DNA from: Clostridia bacterium
GTDB taxonomy: Bacteria; Bacillota; Clostridia; Oscillospirales; Acutalibacteraceae
NCBI GenBank assembly: GCA_017416765.1
Contig: JAFQBE010000035.1
Span: 1 to 64,000 of the forward strand
Direction of reading: 5' to 3'
Length of the DNA stretch: 64,000 nucleotides
Part shown: piece by piece, positions 45,991 to 48,541 of the stretch
Layout of the letters: the number at the start of each line of letters is the position of its first letter
Numbering within the stretch: the first letter of the stretch is position 1
Notes under the pieces: model-generated
Seen by the model: only the letters and a program-made list of their open reading frames with translations
Database searches by the model: none
What the model was told of the DNA's origin: nothing
Position numbers and translations under genes: made by a program

Positions 45991-46021
45991 AACAACGCAC
46001 ACTTTTACGGTGTGCGTTGTT
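45991..46021. terminator. Terminator of the gene at 46025
   Basis: A 12-bp stem AACAACGCACAC / GTGTGCGTTGTT (45991-46002 with 46010-46021) with a 7-nt loop, between convergent transcripts. Confidence 0.8.
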
Positions 46022-46024
46022 TTA

Positions 46025-46558
46025 TTATTCACTTTCTTCGGGAACTTTAAGCCATGTAGCATCGTGACAAAGTCCTGCTATTTTAAGCTTTGTATAATCT
46101 TCGTTGAATTCGTATATGTAGCACTGTGTGCCGGGTCTTGCTTTTTCACCTGCGCCCGAATAAACAACGACCAAATTGTCACCTTCAAAATACCATGTTC
46201 CGTCACCGCTTCCAAATTCATAAAATTCCGGGTGCAGACACGGTTCATATTCGGGATTTCTGCCACAGTAGTAGCCCTTGCAGGTGCCGTCAGGAAAAAA
46301 TTCATACTCGTAATAATATTCAAACAGGGTTTTCCAACGCCCGATTATTGCTTCTTCATGCGGTATAATTACAGGCTCGCGTTTAGGTTTTTCTTTAACA
46401 AACAAAGGCTCAGCGCAGTAGTTGCAGTAGGTTGCATAAATGTTATTGGGCTTTTTGCAGCTTTTACAAAAGCCGCCGAAAGCGGCAACGGCAAACGAAG
46501 CAACAATTATACAAGCTAATATACAAGTTAAAATTTTTTCTATTTTGGTTAATTTCAT
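46025..46558 (-). CDS. Membrane-anchored zinc-ribbon protein with lipocalin-like domain
   Basis: A 177-residue protein starting MKLTKIEKI, with one N-terminal membrane helix (ILTCILACIIVASFAVAAFG), a zinc ribbon (CKSCKK ... CNYC), a basic linker and a beta-rich domain (IIGRWKTLFEYYYEYEFFPDGTCKGYY, GTWYFEGDNLVVVYSG, YIYEFNEDYTKLKI) of the lipocalin-like/DUF5640 style. The function is unknown. The ATG at 46558 has GAGGAT 6 nt upstream and is favoured over an in-frame start at 46606, which lies inside the leader terminator. The leader carries a structured RNA element and a terminator hairpin (46586-46752), so expression may be controlled by attenuation. Confidence 0.7.
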   Translation of the reverse strand: MKLTKIEKILTCILACIIVASFAVAAFGGFCKSCKKPNNIYATYCNYCAEPLFVKEKPKREPVIIPHEEAIIGRWKTLFEYYYEYEFFPDGTCKGYYCGRNPEYEPCLHPEFYEFGSGDGTWYFEGDNLVVVYSGAGEKARPGTQCYIYEFNEDYTKLKIAGLCHDATWLKVPEESE

Positions 46559-46585
46559 TTCTTTATCCTCTAATAAAATAAAAAA

Positions 46586-46605
46586 TGCGCAGCCGAAGCT
46601 ACGCA
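46586..46605 (-). terminator. UUCG-loop intrinsic terminator in the leader of the 46025-46558 gene
   Basis: Minus strand: TGCGTAGC-TTCG-GCTGCGCA, an 8-bp stem (one G-U) with the very stable C(UUCG)G loop, directly followed by TTTTTTATTTT. The gene's ribosome site lies a few bases beyond, so the hairpin sits between promoter and gene. Confidence 0.85.
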
Positions 46606-46629
46606 CGAAAAATACGCAGCTCTGCTGTC

Positions 46630-46752
46630 GCCAAACAAAAATCTACATACCCACATAGCAGCGTGTGCAGAAACAGAGCATCTGTATTTTTACCTGAATT
46701 AGATAAAAATACACACGCCTGATGCGGGTAAAATATTCGATTTTTGTTTGGC
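46630..46752 (-). ncRNA. Candidate structured RNA (leader regulator or small RNA)
   Basis: Closed by a perfect 14-bp inverted repeat, GCCAAACAAAAATC / GATTTTTGTTTGGC (46752-46739 with 46643-46630). Inside, read on the minus strand: TACCC (46652-46648 complement arm) pairs with GGGTA; the hairpin TGTATTTTTA / TAAAAATACA spans 46713-46683; and two further helices, GCATC:GATGC and GCGTG:CACGC, cross each other, so they are alternatives or a pseudoknot. A promoter at 46760-46788 would start transcription at the first base of the element. A strong terminator follows 24 nt later. No known riboswitch class was recognised; a 6S-like regulatory RNA is another reading. Confidence 0.6.
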
Positions 46753-46759
46753 AACTATA

Positions 46760-46788
46760 AGTTTACCACACAAAGTTTATTTATTCAA
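46760..46788 (-). promoter_or_regulatory. Promoter of the candidate structured RNA
   Basis: Minus-strand TTGAAT (46788-46783), 17-bp spacer, TAAACT (46765-46760) with an extended TGG. The predicted start (~46753) coincides with the 5' edge of the RNA element. Confidence 0.55.
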
Positions 46789-46838
46789 GAAAAATTTAAC
46801 CAAATAGAAATTACGCTGTTGTTTTATGTAAACCGTTT

Positions 46839-46908
46839 GGACAATTCACGAATTGTCCGCCGTAAAAGGAATATGATTGTGAATTACGGACGATTCATGA
46901 ATCGCCCC
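46839..46908. repeat. Paired palindromic repeats
   Basis: GGACAATTC-ac-GAATTGTCC (46839-46858) and, 30 nt on, a GGACGATTCATGAATCGCCC unit (46888-46907) followed by CTACAT. The second is an imperfect copy of the palindrome at 31514-31539. The remaining 46559-47011 gap is explained by the RNA element, its promoter and the terminator at 46943. Confidence 0.7.
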
Positions 46909-46942
46909 TACATACGGATAAACAATTCCCGTCAACTGCAAA

Positions 46943-46976
46943 ACCCGCAGGTTGAAATTTAACTCAACCTGCGGGT
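46943..46976 (-). terminator. Terminator of the EEP phosphodiesterase gene
   Basis: A 13-bp stem ACCCGCAGGTTGA / TCAACCTGCGGGT (46943-46955 with 46964-46976), followed on the minus strand by TTTTGC. Confidence 0.85.
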
Positions 46977-47011
46977 CAGTGTTTTATTCAGCTAATCAGA
47001 TAAGGAAAAAT

Positions 47012-48541
47012 TCATCTGAAATCGAAATTTGTGAAAATTTTAATCAGCACTCTGAATATCCATGTGATGGTTTTGATGAAATTATTTTCTGACTCTTCAA
47101 CAACTTCAAGCTGCTGTGTATCCTCTGTGAAAGCTGCAGTTTTGACAAAGGTAAATTCACATACTGCACCTGAATGGTCTGATACGGGCTGACCGTTTTT
47201 ATCCAGAACCTGAACATATTCAAAGCTTGTCGGCGCAACGCTTACTCCGTTGCTGCTCTTGTACATAAACCTTTCAACCGAATCCCAATTACCCCAGCCA
47301 CTTATACCAGAATCATACCATTTCTGATAATTGAAATAATCTCCACCGTTGTGAAGCTCGTTCCAAGCATCCTTCAAGCCACACTGTTCCTGGAAATAGA
47401 AATACATATCGCTGTCATAATTACAGCTGTGCATATAGGTGTTGAAATCGCCTGTTACGATTACGGGGCGGTCATTTTCTGCAGACCTTTCAAAGATAAA
47501 ATCAACAATCTGCTGATACTGCTTTTCTCTTGCTACAATAGAACCTTCATCAGAAAAAGCATCTGCATGGAGATTATAAAAATCAACATAAATACCTTCA
47601 CCAATATCAATTACCGTATAAATAAAGCCTTTTGGCGTTAGTTCATCAGCACCGTTAGCTAAAACACCGCAGGCATCATTCCACGCTACACGCGTTTCAT
47701 TATATATCGGCATGGATTTTGTAAAGATATTCAAACCGTCGCCGCCGGGCACACCGCCGGTGTGGTTGGTCATATAGTTATAGCCTTCAAGTCCTGAAAC
47801 AAGCTTGTTGTGATAATTGAAATCTTCCTGTACGGCAACTATATCGTAACCGTTTTTAACAATAAAATCTGCCGAAACTGTCTGCTGCGACGGCATGTTT
47901 ATAATCGGCAAACCCGAAACATTGTAGTTGAAAGCTTTTACGGTAACTTTATCCGGGCTGCTATAATCAACAAGCTCAATTTCAAAGAAATCTGTATAAG
48001 TATTTCCATTGCATTCGTATATGAGTTTCCAATAAATTTTATTGTAATCCTTGAATCCGCTGACTCCTTTGCCCATCAACAAATTCCTGTAAAGAACGCC
48101 GTAGTCATCCTGTTCTGCTGTAGATTCTCTTCTTATAAATGTAACGGGCTTGGTAAAATCGACTTCGCCGTTTTCATCCTTTCCCCAATAGCCGCTGTTA
48201 ACCTGGGGATTAATGCGGAAACCGAACCATTCCCCATCTTCATCAAGTGAAAGCAATACCTCTGCCTTTGTTGTTCCGGCAGGAAAAACTATGGTATAGC
48301 CAAGGTCATTTATATCCTTCGATATGGCATAGTCACCTGCATCGCTTGTGTCCTTTACATTATAATCTGCAAAACTCGGGAACTGCATGGTGTGGTCTGC
48401 AGATTTAAAAAGCACCTTCTCAATTGTAACCTGTACACCTGATTCGGTTTCAAAATATTCTGCATTTGCAACTATACCTGAAAAGCAAAAACAGCTTAAA
48501 ACCAATATAACAGCAATATTGAAAGAAACAAATCTTTTCAT
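47012..48541 (-). CDS. Secreted endonuclease/exonuclease/phosphatase-family phosphodiesterase
   Basis: Exported 509-residue protein with a signal peptide (MKRFVSFNIAVILVLSCFCFS) and two parts. Residues ~30-215 form an unassigned beta-rich domain (GEWFGFRINPQVNSGYWGKD). Residues ~220-470 form a metal-dependent EEP domain with KAFNYNVSG, VAVQEDF, DFYNLHADAF, VIVTGDFNTY and the terminal VSDHSGAV. The family includes sphingomyelinases, DNases and inositol phosphatases; the extracellular setting fits a phospholipase C/sphingomyelinase-like or nuclease role, undecided. The C-terminus is hydrophobic (FIKTITWIFRVLIKIFTNF), like that of the esterase at 166-1212. GGAG precedes the ATG. It follows the GPH transporter at 37 bp. 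Confidence 0.8.
   Translation of the reverse strand: MKRFVSFNIAVILVLSCFCFSGIVANAEYFETESGVQVTIEKVLFKSADHTMQFPSFADYNVKDTSDAGDYAISKDINDLGYTIVFPAGTTKAEVLLSLDEDGEWFGFRINPQVNSGYWGKDENGEVDFTKPVTFIRRESTAEQDDYGVLYRNLLMGKGVSGFKDYNKIYWKLIYECNGNTYTDFFEIELVDYSSPDKVTVKAFNYNVSGLPIINMPSQQTVSADFIVKNGYDIVAVQEDFNYHNKLVSGLEGYNYMTNHTGGVPGGDGLNIFTKSMPIYNETRVAWNDACGVLANGADELTPKGFIYTVIDIGEGIYVDFYNLHADAFSDEGSIVAREKQYQQIVDFIFERSAENDRPVIVTGDFNTYMHSCNYDSDMYFYFQEQCGLKDAWNELHNGGDYFNYQKWYDSGISGWGNWDSVERFMYKSSNGVSVAPTSFEYVQVLDKNGQPVSDHSGAVCEFTFVKTAAFTEDTQQLEVVEESENNFIKTITWIFRVLIKIFTNFDFR

Follow-up and report, generated by a model that had tools for sequence, protein, structure and literature searches.

The window analysed here is the whole 64,000-nucleotide stretch of contig JAFQBE010000035.1 from a Clostridia bacterium assembly (GCA_017416765.1). 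A gene encoding a 177-aa protein lies on its minus strand (46025..46558), with an ATG at 46558 and a ribosome-binding site, GAGGAT, at 46565..46570. At its N-terminus the protein carries a hydrophobic helix, and it contains two CxxC motifs. The first-pass annotation, made from the sequence alone, had named it a zinc-ribbon protein; the zinc-ribbon resemblance is weak (E 0.065) and below the cut-off. A search of 58 other genomes at E <= 1e-8 revealed no relatives of the protein. The upstream gene on the same strand (47012-48541) belongs to the endonuclease/exonuclease/phosphatase family (PF03372) and by eye has a signal-like N-terminus. A terminator-like hairpin follows this gene, and the terminator scan lists one at 46943-46976 on the plus strand. 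A palindromic repeat of the GGGGCGATTCATGAATCG type occupies 46860-46915 and is also seen, by eye, near two other leaders of the same genome, L003 and L007.

The region between the two genes contains a minus-strand leader whose parts had largely been recognized in the first-pass annotation. A promoter is present, with a -35 hexamer TTGAAT (46783..46788) and an extended -10 hexamer TAAACT (46760..46765, with TGTGG before it) separated by a 17-bp spacer. An automatic promoter scan of 46000-47100 returned zero calls at a cut-off of 9 of 12 matches, and the window hexamers score 8. Transcription would start at about 46753-46752, close to the first base of P1, a perfect stem of 14 bp formed by GCCAAACAAAAATC (46739..46752) and GATTTTTGTTTGGC (46630..46643). 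This stem closes an element of 123 nt overall, as had been claimed. Inside it, folding and covariation in relatives define a second stem, P2, with its 5' strand at 46712..46730 (46730-46722 and 46718-46712) and its 3' strand at 46648..46667 (46667-46661 and 46656-46648). The previously described 10-bp inner hairpin is P3, in which segment A (46702..46711) pairs with 46685-46694. The latter positions are part of a longer segment, A' (46672..46694; GGTAAAAATAC..GCTCTG), whose partner is either A, in P3, or segment B (46608..46627), in a pseudoknot that would serve as anti-antiterminator. B can alternatively pair with the 5' arm of the terminator to give an antiterminator hairpin (46596..46622), in which 46622-46612 pairs with 46606-46596 over 11 bp. 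The intrinsic terminator (46580..46606) has a stem at 46606-46598/46593-46585, a UUCG tetraloop and a U-tract, and is followed by the GAGGAT site and the ATG, just as had been noted.

The 202-nt window leader folds with z = -8.9 relative to shuffled sequence. This value, together with the recurrence of the pieces with compensatory changes in relatives, argues that the structure is not due to chance. The computed energies, which ignore the loop cost of the pseudoknot, are -17.2 kcal/mol for the A':B duplex and -11.5 kcal/mol for P3. For the antiterminator, the fold of 46626-46592 gives -15.8 kcal/mol, a small stability advantage over the terminator (-14.2 kcal/mol). Since these helix energies are close, the choice between on and off could plausibly be tipped either way.

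When the element was compared with its own genome by BLAST, further copies came up, and six of these, aligned over the 3' half (alignment A2), were used to build covariance model R1. A covariance search with homologues, as proposed in the first-pass annotation, recovered a family with abundant compensatory changes in the paired arms. R1 found 12 copies in the window's own genome at E <= 5.5e-9, the next candidate having E = 2, and another genome carries 14 copies. Copies were present in 10 of 11 genomes of the genus and 52 of 150 of the family (both at E <= 0.001). At the level of the order, 68 of 197 genomes had them (E <= 1e-6). In the family and order searches, where stricter filters lose weak matches, roughly two thirds of the genomes gave no R1 match. 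A sample of the phylum gave a match in only one of 299 genomes (E <= 1e-7), the window's own, and included at least two other members of the order, in which no match was seen. A pattern scan of named genomes returned at least 120 stretches, 118 of them confirmed by R1. They came mostly from metagenome-assembled Oscillospiraceae, Ruminococcaceae, Clostridia, Ruminiclostridium, Ruminococcus, and Monoglobus, many of them from herbivore guts. Pattern matches outside this group, in Algoriphagus (L091) and Spirochaetes (L125), were not confirmed by R1 and were taken as chance. A contig listed as viral in IMG/VR also carries one leader copy at its end (L204, 6466-6578).

For the comparisons below, 77 of 88 model matches were used, leaving out overlapping duplicates and the window copy, which is equal to L012. 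A second collection contributed 127 of 131 matches, after two that were cut at an end and two duplicates were set aside. Removal of identical copies reduced the resulting 204 to 199 distinct ones, drawn from the genomes of one order and from metagenome-assembled Clostridia; together they would make up a large unrecognized regulon. Of these, 195 had usable flanks; a P1 score of 18 or more was reached by 189, and 178 copies were anchored on P1.

Each proposed helix was tested by comparing the pairing of partners taken from the same copy with that of partners taken from different copies, using 68 non-redundant copies (from the 77) and 2000 permutations. Same-copy partners paired far better for P1 (z -20.2), A:A' in P3 (z -11.7), the A':B pseudoknot (z -11.9), the B:T5' antiterminator (z -8.1), and the T5':T3' terminator (z -16.2), and none of the 2000 permutations was as good in any of the five cases. 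P2 gave z -35 with 90 copies. Control pairings that had not been proposed gave +0.4 (A':T5'), +1.6 (P1':T5'), and +3.3 (A:B) in the 68 copies. The controls do not remove the relatedness of the copies, but they argue against it as the source of the pairing signal. The first-pass annotation had also described two helices that cross each other. One of them, GCGTG:CACGC, forms the upper end of P2, a conserved stem; the other, GCATC:GATGC, has little or no support in relatives. As a conserved switch this second helix, which uses part of A', was rejected (z -2.1 with a wide window and -0.7 with a narrow one, 68 copies). The alternative pairings that find support are A:A', A':B, B:T5', and T5':T3'; the switch that they form around B had been overlooked in the first-pass annotation. 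As expected of an attenuator, B:T5' and T5':T3' share T5' and are mutually exclusive, and both are supported.

Compensatory changes were counted in alignment A3 (76 distinct rows), which was fitted to the A':B and terminator helices and not to the antiterminator. In A':B and the terminator together, 16 of 22 modelled pairs changed on both sides, compared to 8.0 in shuffles; double-sided changes affected 9 of 14 pairs in A':B and seven of eight in the terminator. The antiterminator showed 24 double-change cells compared to 8.8 in shuffles, and 91.6% of its cells were paired compared to 88.8% in shuffles. Seven of its pairs had double changes, a number reached by 19 of 500 shuffles. Judged by these counts, the antiterminator is the weakest-supported helix of the set. 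The first 10 pairs of P1 were formed in 110-113 of 113 distinct copies, with swaps among GC, CG, AT, and TA; pair 3, for example, is GC in 54 copies, CG in 42, AT in 10, and TA in 6. These P1 counts are biased toward pairing, because the best complement was taken as the partner. In the anchored copies the letters of P1 (GC.ACACAA) and GCAATCGGAGC are also conserved in primary sequence. Conserved unpaired stretches include an AATA-like sequence after P1, GCAA between P1' and B, and a run of U after A', all of which could also reflect protein or tertiary contacts.

The promoter found in the window recurs at the same place in the relatives. With the 178 copies aligned on P1, the TTG at the -35 place is present in 97, 86, and 81% of copies, and an extended -10 element (TG-n-TAtAaT) with a 17-bp spacer lies six bases before P1, seven in the window. 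The promoter is thus nearly fixed relative to P1, and therefore promoter and RNA belong together. Fifteen of the 199 copies have another copy within 700 nt downstream, an undercount for pairs split over two loci, and tandem arrays of two to four units occur. Some tandem or solitary copies could act as free RNAs. A gene with a PIN-type domain at L077 is directly preceded by four tandem copies (1018-1933 and 1953-2327), spaced about 267 nt from one another and each with a promoter and terminator by eye; the single PIN7 match (PF18475) among the 121 proteins scanned with Pfam was taken as that of L077. The antiterminator is weak in the three upstream copies of this array (-6.0 to -8.4 kcal/mol), as if they were now plain terminated RNAs. 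At L054 (1251-1625), tandem leaders are separated by a seven-codon remnant of a gene start, which suggests duplication of leader and gene followed by the loss of one gene.

The leaders are closely linked to the genes that follow them. A start on the same strand, preceded by a ribosome-binding site, lies within 450 nt of 169 of the 184 non-tandem copies; for 96 copies the gene starts 15-24 nt past the terminator. With the same gene finder, starts at this spacing were called in only 1 of 181 and 12 of 415 controls. No gene was called within 450 nt of nine copies although the sequence was long enough, and six more run off the contig. The 12 copies of the window's own genome have a gene within 25 nt in three cases, a gene at 80-218 nt in seven, only a 52-aa ORF at 431 nt in one, and no gene in one.

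The downstream proteins are biased toward export. Among the 103 downstream proteins with 120 aa or more, a simple hydropathy rule assigned a signal- or TM-like N-terminus to 79 (77%), compared to 121 of 573 background ORFs from the same loci (21%). A Pfam scan covered 121 of the 127 downstream proteins that start within 60 nt, each cut at 390 aa. It detected BspA-type leucine-rich repeats in 31, AMP-binding domains in four, CHAP domains in three, double zinc ribbons in three, and dockerins in two; 65 families were found altogether, many of them once. The candidate regulon consists mainly of accessory exported and cell-surface proteins. At L043 and L044, near-identical leaders from two species precede different exported genes, as if leader and gene had been exchanged separately.

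Neither the window nor any of 14 further loci gave a match to any of the 4227 Rfam 15 models at the gathering threshold. Permissive searches gave scattered sub-threshold hits, none of them consistent, and the 6S covariance model had no match in the window in either the threshold or the permissive search. A sub-threshold match to Gut-1 RNA was seen at L054 (500-576; 41 bits compared to a cut-off of 50). No description of the RNA was found in the literature at the level of abstracts. In word searches of three large discovery papers (PMC11109978, PMC8040213, and PMC8632094), the terms "Ruminococc" and "secreted" had zero occurrences, as did "Oscillospir" and "Faecalibacterium" in PMC11109978 and PMC8632094. 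The family is apparently undescribed. It may sit unnamed in a large published candidate list, since supplementary tables and most subscription papers lay outside the literature search.

We propose that the element is a cis-acting transcription attenuator of a family absent from Rfam, organized as a promoter-plus-leader unit, and we place the probability of this reading at about 0.8. Weighing against it are the tandem copies, the copies with no gene called, the wider gene spacing in the window's own genome, the comparatively weak antiterminator, and the family and order genomes that gave no match. RNA polymerase would start at about the first base of P1, and P1, P2, and the P3 hairpin (A:A') would fold first. 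While P3 holds A', the emerging B would be free to take up the 5' arm of the terminator, forming the antiterminator, so that transcription would continue and the gene would be on. If A' leaves P3, a long-range pseudoknot between A' and B, closed over P1, would result; the 5' arm would then be free, the terminator would form, and the gene would be off. A signal that stabilizes or prevents the P1/P2/pseudoknot fold would set the choice. This signal is most likely a small metabolite or ion; a small-molecule trigger is favoured because the fold is closed and complex and has conserved unpaired stretches. The element would then be an orphan riboswitch. A bolder version, in which a new riboswitch class spans the order as a portable promoter-plus-attenuator cassette before many fast-evolving genes for exported or surface proteins, is tentative and falls a little short of an even chance. 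If it holds, a single intracellular signal would determine the surface protein complement of uncultured gut Clostridia. The defined RNA, with its candidate switch, would also offer a handle to a signal that controls surface proteins (BspA-type repeat, CHAP-domain, dockerin, and zinc-ribbon) in poorly studied gut bacteria.

The proposed arrangement resembles that of the preQ1, ZTP, and c-di-GMP-II riboswitches, which terminate transcription and have an aptamer that includes a pseudoknot. The element shares with these a leader with its own fold, a long-range pseudoknot that competes with an antiterminator, and an intrinsic terminator located just before the gene. In contrast to them, the element has no match at the Rfam threshold, its promoter lies at a nearly fixed distance, the sequence of P1 is conserved, and its genes are diverse and mostly exported rather than of one pathway. 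Because P1 starts at the promoter, there is little room for a leader peptide.

The first-pass annotation had left two roles side by side, a riboswitch-like attenuator and a free RNA, 6S-like or other. The conserved antiterminator and anti-antiterminator pairings and the clustering of gene starts just past the terminator fit the former. For the typical copy, the tight link to a downstream ribosome-binding site and the lack of any match to 6S or another Rfam family speak against the latter, in which the functional product would be the terminated transcript of about 170 nt, either 6S-like or regulatory, with only an incidental gene downstream. The conservation of the promoter in the 178 anchored copies, a terminator within the model itself, the tandem arrays of two to four units, and the copies with no gene following would all suit such an RNA. 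6S RNA is likewise a rod of similar length with a closing stem and its own promoter and terminator. Unlike 6S RNA, however, the element is multi-copy, is linked to downstream genes, and has a pseudoknot and antiterminator. About half of the copies have their gene start tied to the terminator, and B is conserved for pairing with the terminator arm, which a plain small RNA would not need. A free small RNA is therefore improbable as the general explanation. Drum RNA occurs in tandem arrays, and some copies of the element are also arranged head to tail; unlike drum RNA, the element has no Rfam match and is mostly a single leader (only 15 of 199 are followed by another copy), and by eye each of the four tandem units carries a promoter and a terminator. 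The number of copies per genome (12 here and 14 in another) and the closing stem at the ends could also suggest a dispersed repeat or MITE-like mobile element whose terminal inverted repeats only seem structured. This is very improbable, since diverged copies keep their pairing by compensatory change, inner helices included, the promoter is nearly fixed, and most non-tandem copies (169 of 184) have a same-strand gene start within 450 nt.

The remaining alternatives concern what works the attenuator. The regulons of c-di-GMP riboswitches resemble the present set of surface and exported proteins, and a variant of these riboswitches would account for the type of genes controlled. GGDEF domains are present in four of the 10 RNA-carrying genomes of the genus, including the window's own (one domain), but six of the 10 have none at E <= 1e-5, and completeness reaches 90% or more in four of the six. 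Because of these six carriers, and with no Rfam match, c-di-GMP has only a very slim chance of being the signal. A protein or trans-acting RNA that binds the conserved P1/B sequence could switch the same attenuator in place of a small molecule, and we regard this as unlikely, though worth serious consideration. It would fit the conservation of P1 and B, which extends beyond pairing to the letters themselves. LicT/SacY and ANTAR proteins act on leader attenuators that have alternative terminator and antiterminator hairpins, as the element does; unlike those leaders, the element is a closed P1-P2 rod with a pseudoknot. A search for LicT-type CAT_RBD domains found none in the 11 genomes of the genus; the control search detected them in 4 of 14 well-known genomes. 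ANTAR domains were absent from the window's own genome and were found in 5 of the 11 genomes, one of which (G010) has no copy of the RNA, and in none of 14 control genomes. For an RNA partner, the candidate is L007, a transcript-like element of the same genome. It runs antisense to the P1'-B stretch of the leader in the window, with a computed duplex energy of -48.9 kcal/mol, compared to -43.3 kcal/mol for the best of 200 shuffles. Four of the 12 leaders of the genome beat every shuffle in this comparison, but eight did not. The antisense part is also not conserved, since among the 10 other genomes of the genus one matches only the 82 nt on the operator side and one only a 24-nt tail; L007 is therefore retained as no more than a lead. 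The preferred signal for the attenuator is still a small metabolite or ion.

L007 itself (1441-1665 on contig C7) has a promoter, an inverted-repeat operator, and a terminator, and is divergent from an XRE-type gene. It may be an antisense RNA, or else a leader copy that has decayed and is read in reverse. Read by eye on the other strand, it resembles a decayed leader before the XRE-type gene.
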